Virus record (IMG/VR): IMGVR_UViG_3300042478_002789
Coordinates: 1 to 61,165 of that record
Direction: 5' to 3' (one strand)
Origin: a virus
Length of the DNA: 61,165 nt
Positions 1-61,165 of the stretch are shown here, piece by piece; the first letter of the stretch is position 1, and every line of letters starts with the position of its first letter. The notes beneath the pieces are model-generated. The model ran no database searches and was not told the DNA's origin. It worked only from the letters and a program-made list of their open reading frames with translations. The position numbers were made by a program, and so were the translations under genes.

Positions 1-1
1 C

Positions 2-226
2 TCATGGCTTGGCCTCCAGCGCGGCGCGGGCTGCTGCCTCAATGTGCGGAGGAACATTGCTTCCACTCGCATGAGCGTGAATGTAGACCGCCAGCGGCCA
101 GCGCAGCACATCGACAAGGGCGCGGAGCCGGGTGATCTCCTGCGCCATCTTCATCTCCGCTGCGGTCGGTCCTGCGTATCGTGCACACAGGAAATCAACT
201 CCGAACTCCTTGTAGATGTCGCTCAT
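2..226 (-). CDS. Small array protein, paralogue of the 2699-2932 gene
   Basis: A 74-residue protein of unknown function. It begins MSDIYKEFGVD, has a short helical segment (EITRLRALVDVLRWP, residues about 30-45), a WPLAVYIHAH stretch and a C-terminal EAKP tail. About three quarters of its residues match the product of 2699-2932, and the DNA is also close, so the two arose by duplication. The start at 226 overlaps the stop of the upstream gene as ATGA and has AAGGAGG upstream. Its own stop (2-4) overlaps an ATG at 3-5 that begins another array gene running off the left edge of the window. Confidence 0.85.
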   Translation of the reverse strand: MSDIYKEFGVDFLCARYAGPTAAEMKMAQEITRLRALVDVLRWPLAVYIHAHASGSNVPPHIEAAARAALEAKP

Positions 227-432
227 GGCTTGGCCTCCTTAATGGCCGCGAAATATGCTGGACGCCAATCACCGTCCTGCGTGTTTTCCCATTCGGCGCC
301 GCACCTTTCGCAGCGTCTGACGGATCGTCTAGACACATACGTCGTGTTGTCTGGCAGGGGCATTGGCACATCAATGGTCATCCGCCGCGCCGTCTTGTGG
401 AGGCAGGAGAGGCAGAGCAATACTTTAGTCAT
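223..432 (-). CDS. Small array protein with zinc-ribbon cysteines
   Basis: A 69-residue protein beginning MTKVLLCLSC. Two Cys pairs, CLSC near residues 7-10 and CERC near 41-44, with nearby His residues suggest a zinc ribbon; no family is recognised. It ends IKEAKP, the embedded ribosome-binding site for the gene starting at 226. Its start overlaps the stop of the upstream gene (429-743). The function is unknown; a small regulator or host-takeover factor would fit the setting, but that is inference. Confidence 0.8.
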   Translation of the reverse strand: MTKVLLCLSCLHKTARRMTIDVPMPLPDNTTYVSRRSVRRCERCGAEWENTQDGDWRPAYFAAIKEAKP

Positions 433-743
433 GGCGCAGCATCTTCAAGCGCGTAGGTCGCTGTTTTCTGATGGTTATAGCAGTTAGTGCATTGAGCCGC
501 CACGCTAGGGTGTGGCGTGGCTTGAATCCGTCGAAGCGCCCTTTCCAGCACCTCGACGCGGGCGCGCAGCCTCTCAACCTCAGCAGCGGCAATTGCAGCC
601 TCTGCTTTCTCCCGCTGGGCTTCCCACAACTTGTATTCCACGCCTTTGGGAATTCGGTGACCAAAACCTATGCTGGTCTTGTCGGGGTCTATTCCCTCTG
701 CAACGCAGAGTGCGCGTGCGACTGCTTCAACAATGTCGCTCAT
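429..743 (-). CDS. Small array protein with coiled-coil segment
   Basis: A 104-residue unknown starting MSDIVEAVARALCVAEG. The N-terminal 25 residues resemble a general phage small-protein opening. Residues about 45-70 are a charged helix with the array's common EVERLRARVEVLERAL coiled coil, followed by a CTNCYNH Cys/His pair. The MSD start at 743, with the cassette SD upstream, is chosen over an in-frame Met 27 bases further up. It ends EDAAP instead of EAKP, so the downstream cassette has diverged here. Confidence 0.82.
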   Translation of the reverse strand: MSDIVEAVARALCVAEGIDPDKTSIGFGHRIPKGVEYKLWEAQREKAEAAIAAAEVERLRARVEVLERALRRIQATPHPSVAAQCTNCYNHQKTATYALEDAAP

Positions 744-985
744 GGCTTGGCCTCCTCCTTGAACGCGCATCTGTCCACGCCATCCTTTTCCCTGCGATTG
801 ATCTGCCCACCGTTAGGCACAAATGGGGTCAAAATCGGCAAGAAGAATGCTGCGGGAAGCCGCAGGTCCATCTGGTTCTCTTTGAAGTACCGGCAGAGTC
901 CATCACCACTTGGATGCAGCCTGCCGTTCTTCGTGCGCTCCCACTCCGCGTAGATGCAGCCGACGCAAGTTGATGGCTCGCTCAT
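740..985 (-). CDS. Small Cys-containing array protein
   Basis: An 81-residue unknown starting MSEPSTCVGCIYAEWERT. It has CVGC at residues 7-10, a third Cys in GLCRYF near residue 31 and a fourth near the C-terminus, suggesting metal binding. The body is hydrophobic around LPAAFFLPILTPF, and the tail is FKEEAKP. Stop and start overlap both neighbours as ATGA. No family recognised. Confidence 0.8.
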   Translation of the reverse strand: MSEPSTCVGCIYAEWERTKNGRLHPSGDGLCRYFKENQMDLRLPAAFFLPILTPFVPNGGQINRREKDGVDRCAFKEEAKP

Positions 986-1218
986 GGCTTGGCCTCCTTG
1001 TCGAGCCGAGCGATGAGCGCGTCGGCGAACATGACCGCGTCATACGCGCATCCATTGAAGGTTCCGCTTGAGCCGTCGTAGCTAGAGTTCGCGAGCTGCC
1101 CCGCGAGACACGCAGTCGCGATGCGCTCGCGTCGGTCGGCGCGGAGGCGCTCGATCTCGGCTCGCATCAACGCGATCTGCCGCCCCGCGATATCATATGC
1201 CTTCTGATTGTCGCTCAT
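982..1218 (-). CDS. Small array protein, short coiled coil
   Basis: A 78-residue unknown starting MSDNQKAYDIAGRQIALMRAEIERLRADRRERI. The N-terminal half is predicted helical and contains the array's EIERLRA motif. The C-terminal half (GCAYDAVMFADALIARLDKEAKP) ends in the shared tail. Coupled to both neighbours by ATGA overlaps. Confidence 0.82.
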   Translation of the reverse strand: MSDNQKAYDIAGRQIALMRAEIERLRADRRERIATACLAGQLANSSYDGSSGTFNGCAYDAVMFADALIARLDKEAKP

Positions 1219-1442
1219 GGCTTGGCCTCCTTCAGCTTGGCGTGTATTGGGGTTGCGTTGAGTAACCGACCGCTGGCTGGATGGATGCGGTCGTTCAACG
1301 CTCCAACGAGTTCTTCAGGTGGGCGCGGCAACCTGACATCCCTCTCCAGCACCTCGATGCGGGCGCGGAGGCGCTGGTTGTCGGCATTAAGCTCGCACAC
1401 TTCGCGAGATAGCTTCTCTATGATTTCGTAAACGTCGCTCAT
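1215..1442 (-). CDS. Small array protein, coiled coil
   Basis: A 75-residue unknown. It opens MSDVYEIIEKLSREVCELNADNQRLRARIEVLERDV, a nearly continuous heptad-like helix, then a Pro-rich turn (LPRPPEELVG) and the KEAKP tail. The DNA for the RLRARIEVLE segment (about 1338-1375) closely matches that of other array genes. Function unknown; homo- or hetero-oligomerisation through the coiled coil is an inference. Confidence 0.83.
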   Translation of the reverse strand: MSDVYEIIEKLSREVCELNADNQRLRARIEVLERDVRLPRPPEELVGALNDRIHPASGRLLNATPIHAKLKEAKP

Positions 1443-1630
1443 GGCTTGGCCTCCTCTCGTGTAACGACCAGCTTGATGGTCGGGCGTTTCTCGCGATTTA
1501 GAACCGCATAGCCGGTGATGTGGCCGGTCTTCGCGCGATTGCCATGGGGAAAAACCACGCTGACGGTTGAGTCGGAGCCGTGATCCTTTATCAGAGAGGT
1601 GATCAAGGCTCGCAATTGACCAAGTTTCAC
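1439..1630 (-). CDS. Small array protein with GTG start
   Basis: A 63-residue unknown with no coiled coil; it reads as a small beta-rich protein (STVSVVFPHGNRAKTGHITGYAVLN) and ends REEAKP. It is the only array member whose cassette uses GTG: the usual CCATGA is CCGTGA, so the overlap is GTGA. The SD AAGGAGG is unchanged. Function unknown. Confidence 0.82.
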   Translation of the reverse strand: MKLGQLRALITSLIKDHGSDSTVSVVFPHGNRAKTGHITGYAVLNREKRPTIKLVVTREEAKP

Positions 1631-1914
1631 GGCTTGGCCTCCTTCAGCGCGGCGCGCAGATTCTCCTCCAAATGCTCCCAGCCCTTTCCGGCTGGGTCAT
1701 AGGTATCGGCATTCTCGTAGTCGATGAGTGCCTGTGCTGCTGCGCGTATGGTCTCCAACTCCTCCACGCGGGCGCGGAGGCGGGTGATCTCGTTCAGCAG
1801 AAACGCACGGTCTTCATGCGATTTCGGGCAGATCAGCGACGGGCCGTAGCGCCACCGCTCACCTAGTTCGTGCCTCTCGCGTATCTCGGCTAGCTTCTTG
1901 TCAACGTCGCTCAT
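1627..1914 (-). CDS. Small array protein, coiled coil, similar to the 60954 gene
   Basis: A 95-residue unknown starting MSDVDKKLAEIRERHELGERWRYG. Residues about 41-60 hold NEITRLRARVEELETIRAAA, close to EITRLRARVEVLERIRAAA in the product of 60954-61145, and both end A-A-L-K-E-A-K-P. The two proteins thus share a C-terminal module, while the N-terminal part here is unique. This is one of the clearest signs that array genes are built from exchangeable segments. Confidence 0.84.
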   Translation of the reverse strand: MSDVDKKLAEIRERHELGERWRYGPSLICPKSHEDRAFLLNEITRLRARVEELETIRAAAQALIDYENADTYDPAGKGWEHLEENLRAALKEAKP

Positions 1915-2129
1915 GGCTTGACCTCCTCGTGTAAGACATACTCGTCGGAGACCCAGGCTTCCTCAACCCAAATCCCGTCGAATTTCTTGTTATACTTGTT
2001 ATCCTCAATTTCTTTTGCGCAGGACTCTGCCATCTCCCTATCAGCAAAGACCCTGTAAACATACGTCCGGGTTCTTCCTTCAGAGTAATCGCCTTCAACG
2101 AGAACTATCCAGACGACGTTCTTGGTCAT
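1911..2129 (-). CDS. Small array protein, tail variant EEVKP
   Basis: A 72-residue unknown starting MTKNVVWIVLVEGDYSEGRTRTYVYRVFADREMAESCAKEIEDNK. It looks like a compact alpha/beta fold. It ends HEEVKP because one base of the cassette changed (GAGGTCAAGCC), which leaves the SD GAGGT intact. Its start at 2129 lies in a cassette that is not coding for the gene upstream, which already stopped at 2157. Confidence 0.82.
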   Translation of the reverse strand: MTKNVVWIVLVEGDYSEGRTRTYVYRVFADREMAESCAKEIEDNKYNKKFDGIWVEEAWVSDEYVLHEEVKP

Positions 2130-2156
2130 GGCTTGGCCTCCTTCAGGGCGCGACCG

Positions 2157-2702
2157 CTACTCGCAAGAGTAGATCTGTTCCGACCGCCGCAGCGGCAGCC
2201 ATCGCGGCACGGTCGTGAATGACTTGTCGCGGAACAGGACGCGGTTGGTCGGCTGGATGGTCAGGCGACCGCCATCGGTTCGCAAGAACATGAACTCCTT
2301 TGCCTGAGCCGGCGCGTGTGTGTAGGCGTCTCCTACCGGGATGGCCGTGAACAGGTATTCCGCGCCCAGCTCGGCGTCTGCCGCGCGCACAATCGCGCCG
2401 AGCCCGTCGAGGTAGTCGTAGGTGTGCAGGGAGAACTGCGAGTTGTAGCAGTCCCATTCCTGCGCGTCCTTGATCGTCCACGGATCGGGGTCGCTGCAGA
2501 ACGCCAGCGCGTGAGGCGGAAGGTCTCGGTAGACCGCGCCGCACTCAAGCAGCACCGTGCAGCCCCATGCTCGACCAGGATGGCTGTGCAGGCCGAACCA
2601 GACCGCAGGTAACCATTCGTCGGCGCCGAAGCCGATGAAGGCACCGCAGACCGAAACGTATTGATGGCGTGGCAGGCTGCCGCTGGCGGTGAAGAGCGTC
2701 AT
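2157..2702 (-). CDS. Hypothetical protein, largest member of the array
   Basis: A 181-residue unknown starting MTLFTASGSLPRHQYVSVCGAFIGFGADEWLPAVWFGLHS. It has several Trp and Cys residues and a regular alpha/beta pattern, with no recognised family. The start overlaps the stop of the neighbour at 2699 as ATGA with GGAGG upstream. It stops at 2157, leaving 27 non-coding bases that still contain a full cassette before the next start. Another frame through those bases reads ALKEAKP-stop, so an ancestral tail has been left out of frame. Confidence 0.82.
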   Translation of the reverse strand: MTLFTASGSLPRHQYVSVCGAFIGFGADEWLPAVWFGLHSHPGRAWGCTVLLECGAVYRDLPPHALAFCSDPDPWTIKDAQEWDCYNSQFSLHTYDYLDGLGAIVRAADAELGAEYLFTAIPVGDAYTHAPAQAKEFMFLRTDGGRLTIQPTNRVLFRDKSFTTVPRWLPLRRSEQIYSCE

Positions 2703-2932
2703 GGCTTGGCCTCCAGCGCGGCGCGGGCTGCTGCCTCAATGTGCGGCGGCACGGAATTGCCTGTCTGGTGCGCGTGGATGTAGACCGCCAGCGGCCAGCG
2801 CAGCGAATCGACGCGGGCGCGGAGGCGCTCGATCTCCTGCGCCATCTTCATCTCCGCTGCGGTGGGGCCTTCGTTCTCGCTGCAACAGTCGCGGAGAACA
2901 TCGACCCCGAACTCCTTGTAGATGTCGCTCAT
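2699..2932 (-). CDS. Small array protein, paralogue of the 2-226 gene
   Basis: A 77-residue unknown starting MSDIYKEFGVDVLRDCCSEN. It carries the EIERLRARVDSLRWPLAVYIHAH block and the identical VPPHIEAAARAALEAKP end seen in the 2-226 product, differing by a three-residue insertion and scattered substitutions. The MSD start at 2932 is preferred over an upstream in-frame Met because it sits at the cassette and overlaps the stop of the preceding gene. Confidence 0.85.
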   Translation of the reverse strand: MSDIYKEFGVDVLRDCCSENEGPTAAEMKMAQEIERLRARVDSLRWPLAVYIHAHQTGNSVPPHIEAAARAALEAKP

Positions 2933-3183
2933 GGCTTGGCCTCCTTGTTCAGAACTTTGTCGATACGAGCCATCATTGTTGCTTGCTCCACGACTCCGCG
3001 CTCTGTCATTGGTCTCCAGTAGATGAGACCGTTGTGACGAGCGTCGATCAATGCATCCGTCAACTCCATGACGCGAAAGCGGAGGCAAAGAATCTCCTCC
3101 GCTGCGTCGGCAATGATGTGAGCATCCTCCTCGCTGTACATGCGGGCTGCTTGAGCGCAGTCCATTAGGGTTCTATTGCTCAT
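2929..3183 (-). CDS. Small array protein, helical
   Basis: An 84-residue unknown starting MSNRTLMDCAQAARMYSEEDAHIIADAAEEILCLRFRVMELTDALIDAR. It is strongly helical, with a diverged LRFRVMELTDAL segment in the place of the array coiled coil, and ends KEAKP. The cassette upstream of its start at 3183 (GAGGATGGGCCATGAG) is diverged, so the exact repeat ends about here. Confidence 0.8.
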   Translation of the reverse strand: MSNRTLMDCAQAARMYSEEDAHIIADAAEEILCLRFRVMELTDALIDARHNGLIYWRPMTERGVVEQATMMARIDKVLNKEAKP

Positions 3184-3392
3184 GGCCCATCCTCCTCGCG
3201 CATGGCCCGCACCACTTCTAGGAGATCCTCTTTGTTGGCCACGCCAAACGAGAGCATGCGCTCCAGGTCCACGGAGTGGGCAAGCATCTTCTCGTTGTGG
3301 GCGCGGATGCGGATGATATCGTCGATGGCGTCATCGATATATTCGATCCTCATCTTCCGCATGGCTTGTAGCGTTCGGAATGTTCTGGTCAT
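3180..3392 (-). CDS. Small helical protein next to the array
   Basis: A 70-residue unknown starting MTRTFRTLQAMRKMRIEYIDDAIDDIIRIRAHNEKMLAHSVDLERML. Almost all of it is predicted helix. It ends REEDGP rather than EAKP but still carries GAGGA before the next start, so coupling is kept while the tail sequence differs. ATGA overlaps join it to both neighbours. Confidence 0.78.
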   Translation of the reverse strand: MTRTFRTLQAMRKMRIEYIDDAIDDIIRIRAHNEKMLAHSVDLERMLSFGVANKEDLLEVVRAMREEDGP

Positions 3393-3673
3393 AGGCCGGC
3401 CTCCTCCTTGATGCGGTTGACGACTGGCCAGAGTTCCTCGTGGACGAGGTCGTGGATGATGTCCTCGGGGGACTTGTCATCGGCGAGGTGGAGTACCATC
3501 CGTTCCTGTGCCTCGTCAAGGATGGCTTCGCGCAGCGTCACCATGATGGCAAGGATCTCCTTCTTGGCTTTGGCCTGGGCCTTCTCGATGCGCTCGTAGC
3601 AATGGAGGGCGGAGCATTGCTCGCGGTGTGCGTCGGTCTCCCGACAGTACTGCTCGTAGCTATACTGGTTCAT
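3389..3673 (-). CDS. Hypothetical protein, coupled small gene
   Basis: A 94-residue unknown starting MNQYSYEQYCRETDAHREQCSALHCYERIEKAQAKAKKEILAIMV. It is helical and acidic in its second half and ends IKEEAGL; the last codons again hold AAGGAGG upstream of the next ATG. The start at 3673 is taken because AAGGAGG lies just upstream inside the preceding gene; a longer reading extending to 3826 would run through the gene at 3660-3839. Confidence 0.8.
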   Translation of the reverse strand: MNQYSYEQYCRETDAHREQCSALHCYERIEKAQAKAKKEILAIMVTLREAILDEAQERMVLHLADDKSPEDIIHDLVHEELWPVVNRIKEEAGL

Positions 3674-3839
3674 GGGGTTCCTCCTTGATGAGGTGGTAAC
3701 CGGCAGCTTGGAGGGCAGCGAGAACAGCGGCGGTATCCTGCCGCCACCACCCTTTCTCCTCTTCGGAGAGAAGGTGCCATGGCTTGTGGGGGTATTCGTT
3801 GACTGCCCATATGGCAGCGATGACATCGAGGTGGTCCAT
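3660..3839 (-). CDS. Hypothetical protein, 59 residues
   Basis: An unknown protein starting MDHLDVIAAIWAVNEYPHKPWHLLSEEEKGWWRQD. It is short and Trp-rich, with a helical C-terminal half ending KEEPHEPV. The AAGGAGG in its last codons serves the gene starting at 3673, so the 14-base overlap is functional coupling. Its ATG overlaps the stop of the upstream gene as TGATG. Confidence 0.75.
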   Translation of the reverse strand: MDHLDVIAAIWAVNEYPHKPWHLLSEEEKGWWRQDTAAVLAALQAAGYHLIKEEPHEPV

Positions 3840-6941: not shown

Positions 6942-8774
6942 TCACTTGATGAGGGAGATGATGCGGGTGAGAGCGGCAGCCTCTGACTCAGCCCACGACT
7001 TGGTATCCAGTAGGGTGAAGAGGGGGTTAGCCCGGATAACCTTTAGGTACTCCTTCTTGTAGTCGATGTTGCAGGAAGCCCAGCCAGAGCAGAAAGCCTG
7101 CACGTCGTAGTAATGGACAGGGTGGAAGTTGGCGGGCTTGGGTGGAGGGGGAGGGAGCAACCCGCTGGCAGCGAGGGCTACATACAGGGGCGTATCCCAA
7201 CCGTCAACCTGTTGATAGCTGTTGTAGAGAGCGAGGGCTGGAGCCTCGGTGTCGAGGAAGACCTGGGCGGCAGCCTCCCACTCGGCGGCGGCATCCCTGA
7301 GGGTGTTGTACTTGCCCTTGAAGTCAGGGGGGATGAGAGCGATCTGGCCTCCGATGCGCCGGCACATCGCCATGTAGATGGCACGGGAGAGCCTGACACC
7401 GCGCCAGTAGGTAGCCTTGTCCACCACCGTCACCGGGAGGTAGTGGGTGCAGGGGGTGGGGGATACCACAAGGGTGCCCCGGTCGTTGAGGATGCGGTGG
7501 GCGATGGGGCGGGAGGCCTTGCGGATGGGGGCTGCGGTGGGGATGGAAGAGAGGGGGATGATGGGCAGGCCCATGTCATCGAAGGGTGTCCTGTCCTCCA
7601 CCACGTACACGTCGGTGCCGGGGCCGTAGTTGGGCTGGTTACGGAGGGTGTTCTCGATGCGCTCCTGCATCTTGCGGTTGTCGTCTTCGAGGTAGGCCAC
7701 GTCCTCCCAGTAGAAGTAGAGGTTGGACCCGGAGGCAAAAGTGCCATTCCACCTCTTGCGCTTCCGGTCGGAGGGATTGAACTTCCGGTAGCTGGCACCG
7801 TGGATCTCCACGTGGGTGTTACCCACCCTGTAGGTCCTACCGCCGGGGGCATTGAAGATGTAGGACTTGTCGAAGATGGAACCCTTGAGGATCTGCCAGA
7901 TCTGGGGGACGGTGGTGCACTTGGCAACCAAGTCATCCTGGAGGCTGAGATAGTCCTGACGGTGCAGGTCGATGGCATTCTGGATGCGCTGGATGGTGGC
8001 GGGGGAGTAGACGATCTCCTCGCGAGAAGCGGTCACTTCGATGGTGCCGATGGGGAACTTGAGGACGAAGGGCGGGACCCGCTGGAAATGGGCGGTGTTG
8101 AGGGGGTAGGCCACCGGACCTACGAGGATGGAGGGTTTGCCCCCGGAGATGACGAGGTACTGGGGGTTCTCGTGGATGATGGTGGGACCGTCGTAGGTGC
8201 AGCCGGTGATGATGGGGCGGGGCTCGAAGTACTGGATCTGGGAGAGGGCTTCGACCCACTCGGGGGAGGGCTTGGCTGGCACGATGATCTCCAACCCGGT
8301 GTCGTTGGTGGGCTCGGAGGATACCTCGTGGAGGGCAGGCATCCCGTCGGCACCGATGCTGGCCATGTAGGTGGTCTTGGTGCCAGCGTGGGAGGAGACG
8401 ATGGTGTAGCTGTTGGCGATGGCGAAGGGGCTCTTGGCACCGAGGCCGAAGCCGCCGATCTGGCTGTTGTCACGGCGCTTGGTGGATTCACCGAAGCGGG
8501 TGAAGACCTCCACCATCGAGGTGCGAGAGAGGCCGGGACCCTTGTCACGGATGCGGAAGGAGGGGTCGAGTGCGGTGGGCACCCGGATCTCCATGGGCTG
8601 GGTGGGTGCAGCGTCGAGGGCATTGGATGCCAGTTCGCGGACCACCGAGGAGATGGGGTTGGAGTAGAGGCGAGAGGTCAGAGCCTTGACCATGATGCCG
8701 TTGGTCTGGATCTGGAAGTCGCAGAGTTTGGTGAGACCGGAAGACTCGTGGGTCTGGGAGATGTCGATAAGCAT
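6942..8774 (-). CDS. rIIA: rIIA-like protein with GHKL ATPase domain
   Basis: A 610-residue rIIA-like protein. The N-terminal 200 residues hold a Bergerat ATP-binding fold: SSVVRELASNALDA (N box), RIRDKGPGL (G1 box) and GGFGLGAKSPFAIANSY (G2 box). The rest matches the large, less conserved C-terminal part of phage rIIA proteins. In T4, rIIA and rIIB protect against the lambda Rex exclusion system. The start at 8774 has GAGGTTCCA before ATG; a 63-base gap with A-rich sequence separates it from the previous gene. Confidence 0.85.
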   Translation of the reverse strand: MLIDISQTHESSGLTKLCDFQIQTNGIMVKALTSRLYSNPISSVVRELASNALDAAPTQPMEIRVPTALDPSFRIRDKGPGLSRTSMVEVFTRFGESTKRRDNSQIGGFGLGAKSPFAIANSYTIVSSHAGTKTTYMASIGADGMPALHEVSSEPTNDTGLEIIVPAKPSPEWVEALSQIQYFEPRPIITGCTYDGPTIIHENPQYLVISGGKPSILVGPVAYPLNTAHFQRVPPFVLKFPIGTIEVTASREEIVYSPATIQRIQNAIDLHRQDYLSLQDDLVAKCTTVPQIWQILKGSIFDKSYIFNAPGGRTYRVGNTHVEIHGASYRKFNPSDRKRKRWNGTFASGSNLYFYWEDVAYLEDDNRKMQERIENTLRNQPNYGPGTDVYVVEDRTPFDDMGLPIIPLSSIPTAAPIRKASRPIAHRILNDRGTLVVSPTPCTHYLPVTVVDKATYWRGVRLSRAIYMAMCRRIGGQIALIPPDFKGKYNTLRDAAAEWEAAAQVFLDTEAPALALYNSYQQVDGWDTPLYVALAASGLLPPPPPKPANFHPVHYYDVQAFCSGWASCNIDYKKEYLKVIRANPLFTLLDTKSWAESEAAALTRIISLIK

Positions 8775-43881: not shown

Positions 43882-46698
43882 ATGGCCAATAGTTGCAACC
43901 CCCAGAGGTCCAAGGTGCTTACCCCCGCTTTCCAGCGGGTGGAGGTGCAGCGCCAGCAGCTTGAGGCGATGAAGGCGGGAGACGAGCCATTCCGCGCCAT
44001 GAACGGCTTTCTCAAGTTCATGTCGGGCTTCGTCTCGCTGGACAACCTGGCCACCACTTGGCCCCAGTTGCGCCCCTATGTCAACGCCCTGAAGACGGGC
44101 GAGCAGATTCGTAGCCGACTGAACTACGAGTATGCCGAGTCGATGCGCAAGGTGGCCGACCTCGACACCAAAGAGGGGCGGGCCATCACCCGCATCATGG
44201 AGGTGGAGGATGCCGAGGGCCGCCTCGCCACCGAAAACGGAGATGGCACCGCTACCATCACGGCGCAGCAGGATCACGTCGGCGTCAAGCAGGGCGAGAC
44301 GGTAACCCTCCCCAAGAAACTGAATGATACCCGCAAGGAAATGCGGCGGGTGATGGACGAACTCTTCACCCACATGATCGATTCCACCAAGGTGGCGATG
44401 GGGTATGGGCCCAACGAGACACCCATGGGCAGGGATGCCCTCATCCTTCGGCGCATGGAATCCATCCGCAAGGAGGGCTACATCCCCCATATCCGCAAGG
44501 GGCGCTGGGGCATCACCTACAACCTCAACGGGCAGATGCACCTCCAGGACTTCGGGTGGAATCCCATCAAGGGTTTCCAGGGCGGGGGCAAGCAGCAGGC
44601 CCTCAAGCGCATCGAGGAGTTGAGGAAGCTGGGGGCCACCGAGATCTCCCAGCCCTTCGACATGGTGGAGCGCAAGGAACTTCTCAAGCAGTTTCTCCCC
44701 AAGGTCGATGCCATCACCAAGATGGACATTCTCTTTACGGCCATCCTCAATCCCAAGAAGAATGGCCGGGCTAGCATGGAGGAGGTGAAGGACATCCTTC
44801 AGTCCCTCCGGCAGGAAGCTGCCGTGCCCATGGCCCGCCTGCGCAAGCGCGAGAACATTCCGGGGTGGCTCACCCCCGAGAATTACGATACCTACCTCCG
44901 TAGTATCTTCGCGCCGTTCGTGGCATCCACCTCCGATTGGGTAGCCAACAAGGCCACCGAGGGGCTGCGCCGGGAGGCGATGGCCTCCATCAAGAACGAC
45001 CCCAAGTTGCTGGATATCGCCAACACCCAGGAGGAGTACCTTCATAGCAACGAGGCGCGCACCGCCCAGTTGAAGGCCCTGGCCTTCTTCTATACGCTGT
45101 GGGGCAACCTCTCCTCCGCCGTCGTCAACTTCACCCAGATTCCCCACGCCTCCCTTCCTTTCCTGGGCGCGGCGGGTGGCACCGGCAATGCCGCCATGCA
45201 ACTCGGGCGGGCCATCAAGGATATCACCAAGGCCTTCACCTTTTCTGCGGGGGGCGACCCCTTTGAAATCGAGAAGCTGGCGGGCAAGGTGAGTCCCGCC
45301 GAGTTGGAGATGCTGCGAGAGGGCTTGAAGCGGGGCCACTTCCAGGCTATGCTTTCGCGCGACCAGGCCCCTACCCAGCTTGCCGGCAGCCAGATAAAGG
45401 AGTTGTACGCGGCGGGCAAGCTCATCGGCAAGGTGGTGGAGGTAGGCTCTTACGCCTTCACCGCCGTGGAGACGATGAACCGAATGGCCACGGCCCTCGC
45501 TGCCTTCAGGATGGCGCAGGACAAGAAGACCCTGGCCACCCTGGGCAAGTTCGGGAAGAACGTGGGGGTGGAGGTCAACGACCCCATGGAGGCCGCCTTC
45601 TTCGCCTCCGATAACACCCAGGGTACGATGTCCAAGGCCTTTCGTGCGCGCTACATGCACGGGATGGCCCTCGGGGTCCTGACGCAGTTTGCCGCCTTCC
45701 CCATCTTCATGCTGGGCCTCTTCAACAAGTCGATGCGCTACTACGGGGGCAACCTCGCCAACTCCCCAGAGGCGCGCAAGATGACGACGCTCCTCTTCCT
45801 GGGCGTCATGTCCACCTCGGGGATTTGGGGCCTGCCCTTCCTTGCTCCGGCGGGCGATGCCCTCGATTGGTTCACCCGCAAGTTCGGGGTGGAGTTGGGC
45901 ATCAGTCCCACGGCGGTGCGCGCGCAGGTGCGCGAGGCCCTCCAGGATATGTTCAAGAGTGTGCCCGCCCTCAACTTCTTGGGGACCCCCGCCGAGTTGG
46001 CCGACATGGTCCTCAACGGGCCGTTCCGCGCCTCGGGGGTGGATATCTCCAAGAGGACGGCGCTGGACATCATCCAGTTCAATCCGCTGCAACTCGATTG
46101 GACCAACTTCGGTCCCCTTGGGGGCGCGGTGGGCGGCGGCATCCGTGACTTCCTGGCCTACAAGAGCAAGGGCGAGGACGCCATGGCCTACGCCTCCCTG
46201 GCCCCCTTGATGGTCCGCAACATCGTCAAGTCCCAGGTAATGCAGGAATCGGGCTTCATCACCCCAGGCAAGATCGAGCCGGCGGTGCCCGCCAAGGAGA
46301 TGCGGGAGGCCGTCGATGTGGCCAAGGTGGGCATGGGCTTCACTCCCACGAAGGTGGCGGTGGGCCGCGAGAAGCTGGAGGAGACCAAGCAACTCGGCAC
46401 CAAGATGGACGAGGCGCGGCAGTCCTATAGCGACAAGATTGCCACCGCCCTCAACAAGTCCCTCAATGCGCTGGATGCCGAGGCCCGCGTGAAGTACCGG
46501 CAAGAAGCCAACGAGTACTTCAAGGAGATTGCCAAGTATGATAGGGGCAAGCCCCTCCGGGACCGCATCATCCAGGATCCCTCCTCCTTCAATACCAGCA
46601 TCCAGAACAAGCTGAAGAAGATGCAGTTGGGCCCCGAGCGCCTGGAAGCGGTACCCAAGGGGGTTCGCGGGGAATATGCCGCCAGATTGCGAGAGTAA
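43882..46698 (+). CDS. Giant internal virion protein, PLxRFG-like
   Basis: A 938-residue protein. N-terminus: NPQRSKVLTPAFQRVEVQRQQLEAMKAGDEPFRAMNGFLKFMSGFVSLDNLATTWPQLRPYV. Mid: GYIPHIRKGRWGITYN...LQDFGWNPIKGFQGG. Later TQIPHASLPFLGAAGGTGNAAMQLGRAIKD, hydrophobic FAAFPIFMLGLFNKSMRYYGG and a helical C-terminus ending KMQLGPERLEAVPKGVRGEYAARLRE. It resembles PLxRFG-type internal virion proteins of short-tailed phages. Role in genome ejection inferred. Directly after the other giant protein (4-base gap). Confidence 0.78.
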   Translation: MANSCNPQRSKVLTPAFQRVEVQRQQLEAMKAGDEPFRAMNGFLKFMSGFVSLDNLATTWPQLRPYVNALKTGEQIRSRLNYEYAESMRKVADLDTKEGRAITRIMEVEDAEGRLATENGDGTATITAQQDHVGVKQGETVTLPKKLNDTRKEMRRVMDELFTHMIDSTKVAMGYGPNETPMGRDALILRRMESIRKEGYIPHIRKGRWGITYNLNGQMHLQDFGWNPIKGFQGGGKQQALKRIEELRKLGATEISQPFDMVERKELLKQFLPKVDAITKMDILFTAILNPKKNGRASMEEVKDILQSLRQEAAVPMARLRKRENIPGWLTPENYDTYLRSIFAPFVASTSDWVANKATEGLRREAMASIKNDPKLLDIANTQEEYLHSNEARTAQLKALAFFYTLWGNLSSAVVNFTQIPHASLPFLGAAGGTGNAAMQLGRAIKDITKAFTFSAGGDPFEIEKLAGKVSPAELEMLREGLKRGHFQAMLSRDQAPTQLAGSQIKELYAAGKLIGKVVEVGSYAFTAVETMNRMATALAAFRMAQDKKTLATLGKFGKNVGVEVNDPMEAAFFASDNTQGTMSKAFRARYMHGMALGVLTQFAAFPIFMLGLFNKSMRYYGGNLANSPEARKMTTLLFLGVMSTSGIWGLPFLAPAGDALDWFTRKFGVELGISPTAVRAQVREALQDMFKSVPALNFLGTPAELADMVLNGPFRASGVDISKRTALDIIQFNPLQLDWTNFGPLGGAVGGGIRDFLAYKSKGEDAMAYASLAPLMVRNIVKSQVMQESGFITPGKIEPAVPAKEMREAVDVAKVGMGFTPTKVAVGREKLEETKQLGTKMDEARQSYSDKIATALNKSLNALDAEARVKYRQEANEYFKEIAKYDRGKPLRDRIIQDPSSFNTSIQNKLKKMQLGPERLEAVPKGVRGEYAARLRE

Positions 46699-54274: not shown

Positions 54275-54398
54275 AGACGGTACCTTCCTTTTCGACCCAG
54301 ACCTTGACTTCGTGGCCGCGCTTCCTCCAGTACGCCCGGATGGAAGAGGCTAGCCGCTCACTGTGGAATTTGCTGCCGAGGTAGTCAGGCCAGTCCAT
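54210..54398 (-). CDS. Hypothetical protein, 62 residues
   Basis: Starts MDWPDYLGSKFHSERLASSIRAYWRKRGHEVKVWVEKEGTVYVIRSTLQF. The alpha/beta pattern RASSIRAYWRKRGHxVxVWVExxxxxYVIRS is common in small phage proteins. Overlaps the polymerase stop by 14 bases and the TSCPD gene start by 65. Its frame is supported by this conserved pattern. Confidence 0.7.
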   Translation of the reverse strand: MDWPDYLGSKFHSERLASSIRAYWRKRGHEVKVWVEKEGTVYVIRSTLQFTFPFAQPARKHR

Positions 54399-56655
54399 CC
54401 GGGTTGTCCTTCTTGCGCTTGCCCCAGTTCATCCCTGTTTGGGATTCCCACGGGATCGTCATCTCCCGAATGTTACCCCATATGTCCTTTACCTGCAAGG
54501 GAAATGTCAGCGCCTCCACGATGCGGGGCACCAGGGTGTCCTTGAGGTGCAGGGGGATCTGGCCGAAGGCAGCATCGTGGATGTTGTTGAGGATCTGCAC
54601 CTCCGGGAGGGTTTGGCGGATGGCGAGGAGGCCCCGCGCGGTCATGTCCCCCACGGTACTCTGGGGCACGTAGGCGATGGCCGCCCTTATGGTGGTGTCG
54701 TCGCGGGGGTTCTCCCAGAAGTTGCGCCGCCGACCAAAGGGGGTGACTAGGTGGCGCTCCGTCTGCACCTGCTGGGCCACCCAGACCTGCCACTTCTTGA
54801 GGTTGGGGAAGGTGCGGAAGTACTTGGATTGGAACTCCTCGATGAGCTTGGTCTCCACCTTGAGGACGCGCGCGATGGTGTAGGCGCTGCCCCCGTAATT
54901 GCTGTTGCCAGTGACCATGATCTTGTTGTTGCGCCGCACCAGGAAGTAGGAGGTGGGCACGGTGAGGCAGTGCACTGGCGTCCCCTCAGTGGGGATCTTG
55001 GTGACCTTCAGGTGGGACGCGCGACTCAAGGTGCGCCGGTTGAGATTGGCCTTGTGGACGATGCTGCCAAAGCCACTGAGGGTGGTTCCCTGGTAGGTGG
55101 TTCCCTTCCCGCACAGGGCGGCGATGGTCTGGTACCAATCGATGGTTTCCTTGCGGACGCTATGGAAGCTGACATGGGTCTTGCCCACGTGGGAGTCCCA
55201 GTGGCGGGTCTCATCGAGCCATGCCTCAAGGGCTGCACGGGACCACCCCAAGAGGTAGGGGCCGGGCAGCTTGAAGCCATCGGGGTTGAATACCTTGCGG
55301 GAGATGGTGCAGGACTTTGCGCCCTTGCTATCCGTCACCCAGTTTTGGGGGCCGAAGAGGAAGTCAACCCGCTTGATCTTGCGCGGCTTCTTGAGGTGGA
55401 AGCGGAGGTTGCCCGAGGTGCTGCTGCCATCGGCTTGCAGGGCGGCAATGCGCCTTGCCTCAAGGGGGGTGACGGTCTGCTGGCCCCCGACATAGTGGCC
55501 GACCACGGGCAGGCGAGCAGAGGAAGGGAGGGCTTCGGCTGGTGCCACCTTGAACTTGTTGTCGGTGGTGTAGGGCATCCGGTGATCGTGGGTGGCAAGG
55601 AGGGAATAGGCCGTGCCCTCGAACTGATGGAGGGTTCCCTCGTAGAGGAAGCTGGTCACCCCCAAGGTGGGCTGGAAGGAGATGGATCCATCGGTGTCCC
55701 AGCAGGCGACGCGCATCCCCACATTGATGGTGTTGATGGGTTGCCACCCAGAGGGGGTCAGGACCTCGTGGTCGGAGGTGAGGCACCCATGGGCCGCCCT
55801 CTTGGCAATGTCGCGGTAGGACATCTCGCGGTAATATTTGCGGTCGGCCAACTCACGGCGGGGCTCGAAGCCGAAGACCATGGCGGCCACCATCGTGTGT
55901 ACGTCCCCCGACTCGATGGCCTTGATGTAGTTCTCGTCCCCCGCCACGTAACCGACGACGCGAGCCTCTGCCCCCTGCTGGTCGCAGTTGAAGAAGATGT
56001 GGCCGGGGTCGGGGATGAAGATGCGGCGGATGTAGTCGTCGATGTTCTGGAGGTTGGAGCCCATCCCAAAGGGATGCTCGCTGCTGGACCAGCGCCCGGT
56101 GTCGGTGCCGGCGATGTTGAAGTTTGCATGCCAGCGCCCCGAGGGAGAGAGCTTCTTGGTGAGGGTCTCCACCGTCTTTTCGAGGTCGCGCATCTTCAGG
56201 AGGTGGGAGGTGACGGGCATGGCCCGCGAGTACTCCCGGTGCAGGCGCTCCAAGGCGTCGCGGTCGGTGGATACTTTCTTCTCGCCCTTCTTGGAAACGA
56301 TAACCTGGGGGAGGAAGAGGCGGGTATAGAGGAGATCTTGTAGCTGCAGGTAGCTGCGGGGATTGAAGGTCTTGCCCCACACCCCGGTGCAGAGGGCGTC
56401 GAAGTTCTGCTCGATGCGATCAAGGCGACCCTGGAGGTGGGCCACCATGCCGTCGCGCTTCTCGGTGTCGACGAGGATGCCCCGCTCCATCATTTCGAGG
56501 ACGAGGGGGAGGAGGGAGCGCTCGAACTCGTAGGTGGGGGAGTGGGGCAGGGCGGCATCGACCTCCATGGTCATTAGGCCGTCGAGCCCATTATAGACCA
56601 TTTGCTGGAGGGCAAGGTCCATTGAGGGCAGGTTGTCCGTCTCGATGATACGCAA
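54385..56655 (-). CDS. polA: Family A DNA polymerase with intein (polymerase half)
   Basis: About 756 residues, containing an intein. Motif A is CDQQGAEARVVGYVAGDE, motif B RDIAKRAAHG / SNYGG (R-x3-K-x6-YG), split by the intein, and motif C IHDAAFGQ (HD, with the usual Glu changed to Ala). The first residues contain VYNGLDGLMT, the exonuclease III motif (YxxxD) whose partner motifs I and II lie in the separate 57127-58098 product. A TTG at 56655 with TTGGAG upstream is the best start; an ATG at 56622 is an alternative, and an ATG at 56715 would overlap the upstream gene more. Resembles the polymerase half of SPO1-type UDG-exonuclease-polymerase proteins. Confidence 0.85.
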   Translation of the reverse strand: MRIIETDNLPSMDLALQQMVYNGLDGLMTMEVDAALPHSPTYEFERSLLPLVLEMMERGILVDTEKRDGMVAHLQGRLDRIEQNFDALCTGVWGKTFNPRSYLQLQDLLYTRLFLPQVIVSKKGEKKVSTDRDALERLHREYSRAMPVTSHLLKMRDLEKTVETLTKKLSPSGRWHANFNIAGTDTGRWSSSEHPFGMGSNLQNIDDYIRRIFIPDPGHIFFNCDQQGAEARVVGYVAGDENYIKAIESGDVHTMVAAMVFGFEPRRELADRKYYREMSYRDIAKRAAHGCLTSDHEVLTPSGWQPINTINVGMRVACWDTDGSISFQPTLGVTSFLYEGTLHQFEGTAYSLLATHDHRMPYTTDNKFKVAPAEALPSSARLPVVGHYVGGQQTVTPLEARRIAALQADGSSTSGNLRFHLKKPRKIKRVDFLFGPQNWVTDSKGAKSCTISRKVFNPDGFKLPGPYLLGWSRAALEAWLDETRHWDSHVGKTHVSFHSVRKETIDWYQTIAALCGKGTTYQGTTLSGFGSIVHKANLNRRTLSRASHLKVTKIPTEGTPVHCLTVPTSYFLVRRNNKIMVTGNSNYGGSAYTIARVLKVETKLIEEFQSKYFRTFPNLKKWQVWVAQQVQTERHLVTPFGRRRNFWENPRDDTTIRAAIAYVPQSTVGDMTARGLLAIRQTLPEVQILNNIHDAAFGQIPLHLKDTLVPRIVEALTFPLQVKDIWGNIREMTIPWESQTGMNWGKRKKDNPDGLA
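54904..55785 (-). mobile_element. Intein with degenerate LAGLIDADG endonuclease in polA
   Basis: About 294 residues from Cys (codon 55783-55785) to Asn (codon 54904-54906), next residue Ser. Block A starts CLTSDHEVLTPSGW; block B is YSLLATHDHRMPYTT (TxxH); block F/G is VHCLTVPTSYFLVRRNNKIMVTGN/S. The endonuclease region shows EARRIAALQADGSS (first LAGLIDADG-like motif) and a poorer second one about LLGWSRAALEAWLDE. The penultimate residue is Gly rather than the usual His. It sits between Gly and Ser inside motif B, so removal restores HGSNYGG. Confidence 0.88.
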
Positions 56656-56815
56656 GGTCGAACTCCAATGCGTGTGAGAGTTGGATGAGGAGGGCGAGGG
56701 CGTGGCTGCGCGCAAGGGGAATGCGGGTGAGGTTGCCGTCCACCACCACGTTGGCCGTCATGCCCTCCGAGGTGGAGGTGACGAAGAGGAGGGACGACGG
56801 CTTGTACTCAATCAT
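56591..56815 (-). CDS. Small hypothetical protein between exo and pol
   Basis: A 74-residue protein starting MIEYKPSSLLFVTSTSEGMTANVVVDGNLTRIPLARSHALALLIQLSHALEFDLA. Alpha/beta pattern. Overlaps the polymerase coding region by 65 bases (TTG start) and its own start by 8 with the upstream gene. Real, judging from the pattern and coupling, but the extent of overlap with polA is uncertain. Confidence 0.65.
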   Translation of the reverse strand: MIEYKPSSLLFVTSTSEGMTANVVVDGNLTRIPLARSHALALLIQLSHALEFDLAYHRDGQPALNGPCPPANGL

Positions 56816-58747: not shown

Positions 58748-59500
58748 TTACGATTCGATCTGCTTGAAGATGGCACCCAGATCGAATGGTGCCTCTGCCT
58801 GCACCCGGTGGGGTGCGCTGCATTTCAGGTAACCCATATCACGAGTGGTCTGCGTGTGCAAGACCGGCTTTCCATCTTTTCGCGAGGCGAGCCACACGTT
58901 GTTCATGTAGCGCGCGACGACGTTGGGAAGCTGCTGCCCCAAGAAGGAGGGGAAGGCGCGCATGAGACCGCCGGTCTTCTTGTTCTCGATGAGGCGGATG
59001 TGGGCGATGAGGATGAGGTGGAAGTTGTAGCGGTCGCTGGTGAGGCGCGCAACCTGGTTCTCGAAGCGCTTGTTCATCACGCCCCACATCGACTGGTCGA
59101 AGCCCGCCTTGTCGTCGGAGATGCCGTTCTCCTTGAGGACCTGCGACATGCAGGTATCGTTCCAGAAGGTGGCGCTGTCGACGACGAGCACGGTGTTGCT
59201 ATCCCACGTGGTGAGATCACCGAGGTCCTCCTCAGGAAGCTTCCACTGGGTGGTAAGGGCAATGGACTTCTTCCACGAGTCGGGGTCCTTGGCGGGGATG
59301 CTGTAGTAGGAGACGTTGCTACCCTTGCCCTCCTGCAGGTAGGCGTTGAGGATGGCGAGGTTGTTGTCGAGGTCGAGGATGCGGACCTTGTAGTCCTTGT
59401 TGGCCAAGGTGGCCATGAGTCCGGTCTTCCCTGCCCCGGGGTCACCTAGGAGGAGAAGCTTCACTCGCTTCTGGTTTGGGTGGTTGAGGAAGGATGGCAT
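58748..59500 (-). CDS. Sak4-like RecA-type ATPase
   Basis: A 250-residue protein. Walker A is GDPGAGKT in VKLLLLGDPGAGKTGLMATLANKDYKVRILDLD, Walker B is NTVLVVDSATF. The rest (WGVMNKRFENQVARLTSDRYNFHLILIAHIR; GQQLPNVVARYMNNVWL) fits AAA_24/Sak4 phage recombinases that anneal single strands. Likely partners are the DUF669-like SSB downstream and the PD-(D/E)XK exonuclease at 4424. The ATG at 59500 follows TTGGAG; a TTG at 59512 is also open. Confidence 0.85.
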   Translation of the reverse strand: MPSFLNHPNQKRVKLLLLGDPGAGKTGLMATLANKDYKVRILDLDNNLAILNAYLQEGKGSNVSYYSIPAKDPDSWKKSIALTTQWKLPEEDLGDLTTWDSNTVLVVDSATFWNDTCMSQVLKENGISDDKAGFDQSMWGVMNKRFENQVARLTSDRYNFHLILIAHIRLIENKKTGGLMRAFPSFLGQQLPNVVARYMNNVWLASRKDGKPVLHTQTTRDMGYLKCSAPHRVQAEAPFDLGAIFKQIES

Positions 59501-59670: not shown

Positions 59671-59762
59671 AGCCACACACCAGCGAGGATGGGGAGGACG
59701 AGGGAAGCGCCGAGGGAGACAACGATGAGGATGGCCGCCGCCCACGGAACGAGTTCGTCAAT
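59649..59762 (-). CDS. Possible tiny membrane protein
   Basis: An open frame of 37 residues with one strong membrane helix (AAAILIVVSLGASLVLPILAGVWLW). It lies between the dCMP deaminase stop and the 59670 gene start, otherwise an unused gap. No ATG, GTG or TTG is in frame at a good place, so an ATT start at 59762 would be needed. This is why confidence is low. Confidence 0.35.
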   Translation of the reverse strand: MDELVPWAAAILIVVSLGASLVLPILAGVWLWQQITN

Positions 59763-60177
59763 AGCTAGATACCACGCCCGCCTCGCGAAAGAGGTCACGT
59801 GAGAGGAAAGCTTCCGCGCCCCATCGCGAAGCAAACTCGGAAGACATTGGAGATGATACCACACGGCGGATTCCTTTCGAGATGACGGAGAGAGCGCAGT
59901 TGCAGCAGGGCGGGTGGGTGACGTAGAGGGTGGCACCTTGCGTGGGGAAGTGTGCGTTGTCAAGCACGTTGCGCTCGGCGTGGATGGTGTAGCGCAGCTT
60001 GATGTCCCGGTCGTTGAGGCGGGAGGCGGAGTCGAGTACGCCCCCAGGGAACCCATTGTACCCCAGGGCGACCTGCCGCTTGTCGGTGCCCACGAGGACT
60101 GCGCCCACCTTGGTGCTGGGGTCCTTGCTCCACGTGGAGATGTGGTGGGCAAGGGCGAGGAAGCGCTCATCCCACAT
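59758..60177 (-). CDS. Deoxycytidylate (dCMP) deaminase
   Basis: A 139-residue enzyme with HAERN (zinc His and catalytic Glu) and PPCCNCALSVI (zinc Cys pair in PCxxC form), preceded by STWSKDPSTKVGAVLVGTDKRQVALGYNGFPGGV. It converts dCMP to dUMP for dTTP synthesis during phage replication. The ATG at 60177 shares a base with the upstream stop (TAATG), so the longer reading is rejected. Confidence 0.92.
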   Translation of the reverse strand: MWDERFLALAHHISTWSKDPSTKVGAVLVGTDKRQVALGYNGFPGGVLDSASRLNDRDIKLRYTIHAERNVLDNAHFPTQGATLYVTHPPCCNCALSVISKGIRRVVSSPMSSEFASRWGAEAFLSRDLFREAGVVSSY

Positions 60178-60404
60178 TAGGCCACGCGCCACACCCGCAG
60201 GCCACGGACGCCGTTTTCTTCGACGGTGCGCACCGTGAAACTGGAGCCCAGCTTCTTGCGGCACCGATTGATGGAGTTGCTAAGGGTGGAGCGCACCTGG
60301 GTTGCTACGAAGAAGGAGTCGCCCACCTGCATGAGGTCAAGGGGGTACTTGATGGGGCGGCCCCGGCGCGGGGGGATGGGCAGGTTGTTCTGGATCTCGA
60401 TCAT
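60177..60404 (-). CDS. VGxSFxV/RVWRVA-family small protein, paralogue 2 of 2
   Basis: A 75-residue protein starting MIEIQNNLPIPPRRGRPIKYPLDLMQVGDSFFVATQVRSTLSNSINRCRKKLGSSFTVRTVEENGVRGLRVWRVA. It matches the 9110-9352 product in the VGxSF and RVWRI/VA blocks. The N-terminus contains an AT-hook-like RRGRPIKYP. DNA binding is plausible. It lies immediately before dCMP deaminase. Confidence 0.8.
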   Translation of the reverse strand: MIEIQNNLPIPPRRGRPIKYPLDLMQVGDSFFVATQVRSTLSNSINRCRKKLGSSFTVRTVEENGVRGLRVWRVA

Positions 60405-60688
60405 GTCTCATTCCTTTCTATGCGGAGAGTGTATCCTGCTACCAGCAGGACAGAGTGGAAGTCAAGGAGGTTGGGTGTGCGATCCCCGCGTAGCCACTTG
60501 CGGAGGGTTTGACGGTGTATACCGGCGCGCTTGCAGGTGTCAAGCAGGAAGCCGGCGTCGTCGGCAAGGATGGCACCGAGTTGCTGGATGAGGGGATCAA
60601 CGTCGGGGAAGACTCCCTTGTAGTTGGCCTTGGCTGCGGCGAACATGGCTTTCTCTTGGCGCACCCGCAGGGGCACCTGGTGTGTCAT
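60401..60688 (-). CDS. HTH (Cro/CI-type) regulator
   Basis: A 95-residue protein. FLLDTCKRAGIHRQTLRKWLRGDRTPNLLDFHSVLLVAGYTLRI is a helix-turn-helix of the XRE type: helix, AGIHRQTLRKWLRG recognition part and the LLDFHSVLLVAGYTL closing helices. It probably controls early genes or the array. The start at 60688 overlaps the stop of the 60685 gene as ATGA. Confidence 0.85.
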   Translation of the reverse strand: MTHQVPLRVRQEKAMFAAAKANYKGVFPDVDPLIQQLGAILADDAGFLLDTCKRAGIHRQTLRKWLRGDRTPNLLDFHSVLLVAGYTLRIERNET

Positions 60689-60957
60689 GTTACGTCCTTT
60701 CCTGCGAGGAGGTCGCGAGCCAGGGAGGGTGCATCCCAGAAGCCGTCACCCTCCACGATCTTCTGGAGACCGGCGCGGTAGCGGGCGATCTCATCTCGGA
60801 GGGCGTCGCCTTCAGCCAGTTCGCGATTTAGTCTTTCCAACTCCTCCACGCGGGCGCGGAGGCTATCAGTTAGAATTGTCGCAAGTCGAGCGCATTCCAA
60901 ATGCTCCTCTTTAAGCCTTCTATTCTCGATTCGCAGCTTGCTCACGATGTCGCTCAT
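60685..60957 (-). CDS. Small array protein, coiled coil
   Basis: A 90-residue protein starting MSDIVSKLRIENRRLKEEHLECARLATILTDSLRARVEELERLNRELAEGD. Nearly all is a coiled coil including the SLRARVEELERLN array segment. It ends LLAGKDVT rather than EAKP, so it is the last array member on this side. The start at 60957 has the full cassette upstream. Confidence 0.83.
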   Translation of the reverse strand: MSDIVSKLRIENRRLKEEHLECARLATILTDSLRARVEELERLNRELAEGDALRDEIARYRAGLQKIVEGDGFWDAPSLARDLLAGKDVT

Positions 60958-61145
60958 GGCTTGGCCTCCTTCAGGGCAGCGAGCAGGGCTTTGAATTTCT
61001 CTCCCCAATACCAACTGCGCTCGTAAGCGAAAAAATCGTCTGCTGCTGCGCGGATGCGCTCCAGCACCTCCACGCGGGCGCGGAGGCGGGTGATCTCCCT
61101 CGCTGCGTCCAATTGAATTTCTGGTGAATCATAATAAGAGTACAT
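60954..61145 (-). CDS. Small array protein, coiled coil
   Basis: A 63-residue protein starting MYSYYDSPEIQLDAAREITRLRARVEVLERIRAAADDFFAYERSWYWGEKFKALLAALKEAKP. It shares its EITRLRARVEVLERIRAAA and ALKEAKP blocks with the 1627-1914 product. No SD precedes its ATG in the remaining 20 bases of the window, so the true start or the upstream sequence may be missing at the window end. Confidence 0.78.
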   Translation of the reverse strand: MYSYYDSPEIQLDAAREITRLRARVEVLERIRAAADDFFAYERSWYWGEKFKALLAALKEAKP

Positions 61146-61165
61146 CGTGTTTTCTGTTAAGAGAC

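Follow-up and report, generated by a model that had tools for sequence, protein, structure and literature searches.

The viral record IMGVR_UViG_3300042478_002789 (IMG/VR), which comes from an uncultured phage, carries an array of small genes at its two ends. The whole stretch of 61,165 bases was analysed and is referred to below as the window. The record is circularly permuted, with about 565 nt absent between positions 61165 and 1, and two independent assemblies of the same phage (L063 and L107) run from window position 61165 to position 1 with about 565 extra bases. With the gap filled from contigs L063 and L129, the array is unbroken across the window ends. It comprises 17 genes over 4.4 kb, extends from the MTRTFRTLQ gene to a helix-turn-helix (HTH)-like gene and lies beside DNA-replication genes. 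This array is very probably an operon of modular design, whose small early-region genes are assembled from half-genes that can be interchanged; the exchange would take place at two kinds of short joint, joint A between genes and joint B within them. The parts of the array and its immediate borders are as follows.

3180..3676, minus strand: constant head genes, MNQYSYEQ (3389-3673) and MTRTFRTLQ (3180-3392)
2..3183, minus strand: variable part of the array, 12 genes, in reading order 2929-3183, 2699-2932, 2157-2702, 1911-2129, 1627-1914, 1439-1630, 1215-1442, 982-1218, 740-985, 429-740, 223-432 and 2-226
60685..61165, minus strand: downstream end of the array, with gene 60954-61145 (truncated at the end of the window; complete at L129 7505-7735) and the last gene, 60685-60957
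60401..60688, minus strand: HTH-like gene after the array, weak match to a repressor profile (phrog_4268, E=0.0012)

The pooled ratio of non-synonymous to synonymous polymorphism (pN/pS) of the array reading frames is 0.17, which indicates purifying selection; gene 2157-2702 dominates this pool, and single short genes are noisy. A preliminary description of this DNA, made from the sequence alone, regarded the small proteins as unrelated. This holds only in part, as many of them have a half-gene in common with another member, and genes 2-226 and 2699-2932 are paralogues with 85% DNA identity. Searches of the coiled-coil array genes against Pfam and PHROG profiles gave weak matches only.

Two joints conserved as DNA

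Joint A is the 15-mer GGAGGCCAAGCCATG. The window contains it in 10 exact copies and in 2 with one mismatch; every one of these lies on the minus strand, within a single small-gene operon. A search allowing up to 3 mismatches found 15 sites compared to 4.3 expected from shuffled sequences, and no shuffle reached 15. The scan and the shuffles bear out the ten exact repeats, and the near copies at 1628 and 1912, that had been reported in the preliminary description.

3..17, minus strand: joint A, exact 15-mer match
224..238, minus strand: joint A, exact 15-mer match
741..755, minus strand: joint A, exact 15-mer match
983..997, minus strand: joint A, exact 15-mer match
1216..1230, minus strand: joint A, exact 15-mer match
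1440..1454, minus strand: joint A, exact 15-mer match
1628..1642, minus strand: joint A, near copy with one mismatch, GTG start
1912..1926, minus strand: joint A, near copy with one mismatch, GGAGGTC (EVKP)
2127..2141, minus strand: joint A, exact 15-mer match, not the in-frame tail of the preceding gene
2700..2714, minus strand: joint A, exact 15-mer match
2930..2944, minus strand: joint A, exact 15-mer match
60955..60969, minus strand: joint A, exact 15-mer match

The cassette consists of GGAGGCCAAGCC followed by ATGAGCGA, and provides a Shine-Dalgarno (SD) core GGAGG, a 7-nt spacer, and ATGAGCGA, which reads MSD. Adjoining array genes overlap as ATGA, and the preceding gene mostly ends in E-A-K-P-stop. 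The earlier reading of the repeat as SD site, ATGA overlap and in-frame EAKP tail is correct for 9 of the 10 exact copies. It fails at 2127, where gene 2157-2702 is read in a different frame and has already ended 28 nt before; the cassette there is an SD site and not the tail of that gene. Junction 429-432 is without a cassette and has an EDAAP tail, and the gap-filling contigs L063 and L129 supply one further exact copy. The DNA upstream of the cassette differs between copies in the upstream sequences listed. This SD/ATGA layout would be expected to give translational coupling. No stable conserved RNA fold or hairpin was found at the cassette in 4 contexts (z-scores from -1.1 to 0.7), and the 1 promoter-like and 5 terminator-like sites of the array, scored with the sigma-70 consensus only, are at chance level.

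Joint B is an intragenic, helix-coding stretch (E-I-x-R-L-R-A-R-V) present in many array genes. Such a second joint, which appears to exchange N- and C-halves within genes, goes beyond the preliminary description. Its positions in the window are given here with the evidence for each.

2813..2827, minus strand: joint B IERLRARV, gene 2699-2932, mapped from L129 4133
1768..1782, minus strand: joint B ITRLRARV, gene 1627-1914, motif and breakpoints
1359..1373, minus strand: joint B NQRLRARI, gene 1215-1442, motif and breakpoints
1135..1149, minus strand: joint B IERLRADR, gene 982-1218, motif and breakpoints
558..572, minus strand: joint B VERLRARV, gene 429-740, one border of an exact block of ~430 nt that L144 and L082 share with the window, breakpoints and exact match
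116..130, minus strand: joint B ITRLRALV, gene 2-226, opposite border of that block, breakpoints, chimeric genes, L019 switch and exact match
61074..61088, minus strand: joint B ITRLRARV, gene ending at 60954, motif and breakpoints
60769..60783, minus strand: joint B IARYRAGL, last gene, with the C-half GLQKIVEGDGFWDAPSLARDLLAGKDVT downstream, breakpoints

In an AlphaFold2 model of the 77-residue product of gene 2699-2932, a single helix spans residues 25-57 and includes joint B (mean predicted local distance difference test score 74, medium confidence), and this predicted position fits a tolerance to fusion. Gene 2157-2702 is without joint B, and the labels of its phage family conflict (ferredoxin in PHROGs, PurM in some cyanophage records).

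Both joints are conserved as DNA beyond the needs of the peptide. In two sets of loci that were collected blind to the cassette, EAKP tails are all spelled GAGGCCAAGCCA (24/24 in one set and 33 copies in the other), against an array background in which GCC makes up 35% of Ala codons and AAG 67% of Lys codons. The four single-base cassette variants of the first set all alter the peptide, giving EVKP, EARP and EGKP types, and an EGKP tail is used by another clade. The array regions of L240, L245, L252 and L235 have their own cassette, GGAGGGCAAGCC (EGKP), and this clade-specific form suggests that the joint is homogenised clade by clade. The preliminary description had raised a possible protein role for EAKP, to be checked where the DNA spelling differs, and the check returned invariant spelling and peptide-changing variants instead. 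A functional peptide tail was rejected on this invariant spelling, the non-synonymous variants, the EGKP clade and the out-of-frame copy at 2127. The tail follows the DNA, and a peptide role is therefore unlikely.

At joint B, 37 distinct contexts were compared with background codon use. Arginine is encoded by CGC in 37/37 (background 41%), isoleucine by ATC in 97% (58%), threonine by ACC in 10/10 (29%), and alanine by GCC in 86% (31%). Common descent of the motif accounts for part of this uniformity, but the sequences on either side of it are unrelated; it is thus the short stretch of DNA that is passed around.

Homology ends and chimeric genes among relatives

Related phages were gathered without the cassette, by way of the gene after the array, the gene before it, gene 2157-2702, and a Sak4-like gene ~1 kb downstream. 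A 17-mer scan of IMG/VR selects for the cassette, and cassette statistics were taken only from the protein-fetched loci. In L131 and L135 the flanks are collinear with the window at 94-99% identity, in 1-2 pieces, compared to a coverage of the window array of 20% in L131 and 36% in L135, where the pieces are out of order. This means that 64-80% of the array is unshared or scrambled. One flank break is a segment of ~0.9 kb within the polymerase gene; a PolA-type DNA polymerase gene with an intein-like insert (HGCLTSDHEVLTPSGW...) lies at window ~54385-56715 (L129 12088-14304), and L135 is without about 0.88 kb there.

Between the same flanks, arrays hold 1 (L149), 5, 6, 6, 7, 8 and 17 genes. 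Complete arrays are preceded by the MNQYSYEQ gene at 78-100% identity, and the MTRTFRTLQ gene comes next in all but L149. At the other end, the C-half of the last gene (GLQ.IV..DGFWDAPSLARDLL.GK) is common to most relatives with a differing N-half; it is absent in L148, and other genes follow it in L132. The array pieces are more alike than the cores of the same phages, with 92.5 vs 79.5% identity in L144 and 95.2 vs 84.3% in L082. The preliminary description had cast the cassette as a plug-in joint for the gain and shuffling of small genes, and this idea has held, as genes are gained, lost and reordered between collinear flanks. It had also named related phages with the same genes behind separate, unrelated start sites as a case that would speak against the idea; the relatives examined mostly retain the joint or a close variant.

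Among the relatives, an Ala-rich MRTTLNQ gene (L144 1927-2487, L145 626-1075) varies by 37 residues of repeats between near-identical phages. It has homologues in Pseudomonas phages AF and PPpW-3, Erwinia phage phiEt88, and Burkholderia phage Bcep176. Protein matches in cultured phages are limited to this module and gene 2157-2702, and the two regions inspected are ordinary small-gene clusters.

Homology breakpoints were counted as the ends of distinct high-scoring segment pairs (HSPs) of at least 60 nt and at least 85% identity between the window array and its relatives. Ends at contig borders were not counted, nor were those inside gene 2157-2702, a gene with diverged homologues. Joint A accounts for 70 of the 111 ends (17.7 expected from length) and joint B for 34 (14.2 expected), and 7 fall elsewhere (79 expected). 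In the circular-shift control the useful figure is the mean, 32, since the control includes shifts of a few bases and its maximum is thus the observed value. By this measure, breakpoints between related phages fall almost only at the joints, so that the exchanged blocks are either whole genes (A to A) or a C-half, one or more genes, and an N-half (B to B).

Splitting 206 proteins at the joint B motif yields 130 N-clusters and 125 C-clusters, in which 14 N-clusters have at least 2 C partners and 18 C-clusters have at least 2 N partners. A strict test for chimeras accepted gene pairs whose DNA is at least 85% identical when followed inward from one end of the gene, but whose proteins are less than 35% identical over the other half. 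Of the breakpoints in the resulting 98 pairs (75 genes), 80% lie no more than 4 residues from the x-L-R-A-like motif (null 18%) and 94% no more than 8 residues from it (null 33%). In a set anchored on the Sak4-like gene, which is blind to both the cassette and the array genes, the corresponding values for 64 pairs are 65% (null 18%) and 79% (null 33%).

Individual genes display the switch directly. The gene at L082 3500-3724 is a mismatch-free fit to one window gene as far as codon 35 and to another from codon 36 onward, and the gene at L144 2484-2720 switches between two other window genes at codons 35 to 41. The exact blocks shared with the window begin and end at successive B joints and contain a C-half, a whole gene, and an N-half (430 nt in L144, 425 nt in L082), and neither phage has an exact core match of 100 nt within the core stretch compared. 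Over 6.7 kb, L019 and the window phage are 99.94% identical; L019 then departs at codon 36-37 of gene 2-226 (R-L-R-A) and is exactly L144-like for its last stretch. This switch would represent an exchange inside a single phage species; it lies near the contig end, where both phages are identical, and may be a misassembly.

Probable annealing at the joints and its alternatives

A typical unit consists of joint A, a variable N-half, joint B, a variable C-half and the next joint A (...EAKP-stop). Exchange from A to A or from B to B preserves the reading frame and supplies a start site to each new gene. Such exchange may proceed by homologous annealing at the joints, within and between phage genomes, with the phage's own Sak4-like protein as the probable annealing recombinase. 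The Sak4-like gene and a dCMP deaminase gene lie as follows.

58748..59464, minus strand: Sak4-like single-strand annealing protein, candidate recombinase (phrog_124, E=1.5e-20)
59758..60177, minus strand: dCMP deaminase (profile match, E=3.6e-42)

The Sak4-like gene is found ~1 kb downstream of the array in the window and is also downstream in relatives. Sak4 of HK620 anneals oligonucleotides that are up to 20% diverged (PMC5928155), and Rad52-like phage recombinases form mosaics between diverged sequences (PMC3945230). The proximity of the gene and this biochemistry therefore make annealing at the joints a likely mechanism. A site-specific recombinase or a diversity-generating retroelement was considered as the driver and set aside, as domains of tyrosine integrase (PF00589), resolvase/invertase (PF00239), and reverse transcriptase (PF00078) were not found in the window, which is 565 nt short at a place where L129 shows array genes. 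The benefit of exchange might be rapid turnover of small host-directed proteins, where a host-directed role is a guess from the position of the array and its turnover. Farther along the window are an rIIA-like protein (6942-8774; phrog_612, E=4.7e-74) and a 938-residue protein (43882-46698) weakly similar to very large phage proteins, one of them labelled DarB-like antirestriction.

It is possible, although short of an even chance, that the array is dedicated to generating small phage proteins by combination. Its two alternating DNA joints would be kept by selection or by constant gene conversion, so that any N-half, C-half or whole gene could be swapped in frame and expressed at once between constant head genes and a shared terminal C-half. 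This would amount to segment-joining logic carried out by homologous annealing.

Several observations weigh against exchange at the joints as set out above. Joint B is absent from some array genes, and some relatives have altered cassettes of EDGR and EGKP types. HSPs and chimera pairs share ancestry and are not fully independent, so nominal p-values overstate the case, and mis-called starts explain part of the breakpoints outside the motif in the Sak4-anchored set. Cultured phages gave no DNA match to the window and no protein match for the two coiled-coil genes tested. Moreover, the support is comparative throughout, and the Sak4-like protein, a likely recombinase, is linked to the array by proximity and known biochemistry only.

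The main rival is a selection filter, a rather doubtful alternative, in which joining occurs anywhere in the array, survivors remain only at the start/stop overlap or in a tolerant helix, and the joints simply mark viability. The position of joint B inside one long predicted helix offers such a fusion-tolerant place, and boundary sequences have not been found at most mosaic borders (PMC3029335). However, a filter acting on proteins would not require the synonymous spelling that both joints keep among otherwise unrelated genes, and few breakpoints (7/111) lie elsewhere, though whole-gene insertions and deletions at other in-frame places would be viable too. The synonymous conservation speaks against a filter as the whole story. 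It is also conceivable, but unlikely, that joint A serves above all in translation and is kept because it gives strong coupled initiation, with shuffling as a by-product of its repetition. The start-associated sequence (SAS) of Cluster K mycobacteriophages, as described in the available passages of PMC3203893, is a precedent, and the cassette has a perfect SD core with 7-nt spacing and is retained where it is not a gene tail. A translation element would leave joint B unexplained, as well as the invariant spacer CCAAGCC beyond the SD, and no conserved RNA fold accompanies it.

Simple tandem duplication within a single coiled-coil gene family followed by divergence, with the shared ends inherited, is already disfavoured and very improbable. 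It would account for paralogous members such as 2-226 and 2699-2932, but not for combined halves of different origin, scrambled orders, or exact blocks between phages with ~80% identical cores. An assembly artefact, in which repeats led the metagenome assembler to join different phages, is extremely improbable. The repeats and exact blocks (up to 430 nt) are long enough to mislead assemblers, and the L019 switch is near a contig end; against this, separate assemblies contain the same arrays (the window, L063, L019 and L107 at 99.9-100%; L144 and L146 at 100%, with L145 at 99.8%; L134 and L135 at 100%), where each array is repeated in two to four assemblies, some of which may stem from sister samples. 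The modular operon with exchange at joints A and B is thus preferred.

Relation to known modular systems

Integron cassette arrays also hold exchangeable small genes behind fixed flanks. The array described here differs in that no integrase domain was found, and in its joints, one an SD/stop-start site and the other a helix-coding stretch. Closer in form is the SAS, a 13-bp sequence (GGGATAGGAGCCC) located close upstream of starts, about half of which are accompanied by extended 17-bp inverted repeats (ESAS) (PMC3203893). In the passages available, the SAS resembles joint A as a short SD-bearing repeat in one orientation ahead of many small non-structural genes of different families. It is a different 13-mer from the array cassette (GGAGGCCAAGCC plus ATGAGCGA) and is not described there as the coding tail of a preceding gene, and neither gene shuffling nor an intragenic joint is reported in those passages.

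The promoter early stem-loop (PeSL) elements of T4-type phages, termed mobile regulatory cassettes (Arbiol 2010 and Comeau 2014, as cited in PMC4503421), are promoter/stem-loop elements between genes, combining an early promoter with a stem-loop terminator. As summarised in that citing source, they are short repeated elements between accessory genes and are thought to mediate modular shuffling, like joint A. In contrast, the array joint is translational and coding, has no excess of promoters or terminators, and is accompanied by a second joint within genes. Domain mosaicism of phage proteins, in the part of PMC10684548 available, likewise involves unrelated proteins that share fragments through recent shuffling. 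There it concerns receptor-binding proteins, endolysins, polymerases, and other core proteins, whereas the array holds tandem small early-region proteins with one recurring exchange point. A limited search of the open-access literature found no description of small-gene arrays with alternating inter- and intragenic joints.

The closest relation is to the mosaicism of temperate phages, in which short homologies at module borders are used by divergence-tolerant recombinases (PMC3945230, PMC3029335). The sequence identity that homology-driven mosaicism requires at the borders of exchanged blocks is present in the array. In temperate phages boundary sequences are not identifiable at most borders, whereas those of the array are repeated many times in one locus and are also intragenic. 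The origin of clean borders between modules in phage mosaics has long been an open question, since the sequences at such borders are rarely visible (PMC3029335). In the array they are visible, in many copies at one locus. They fall into two kinds, and one kind gives rise to new two-part proteins; this would allow direct tests of the role of borders. Should its products act on the host, the array would give the phage a way to renew small effector proteins without breaking the operon. It may be seen as a variant of homology-driven phage mosaicism, not previously described as far as found, with two visible kinds of seam.

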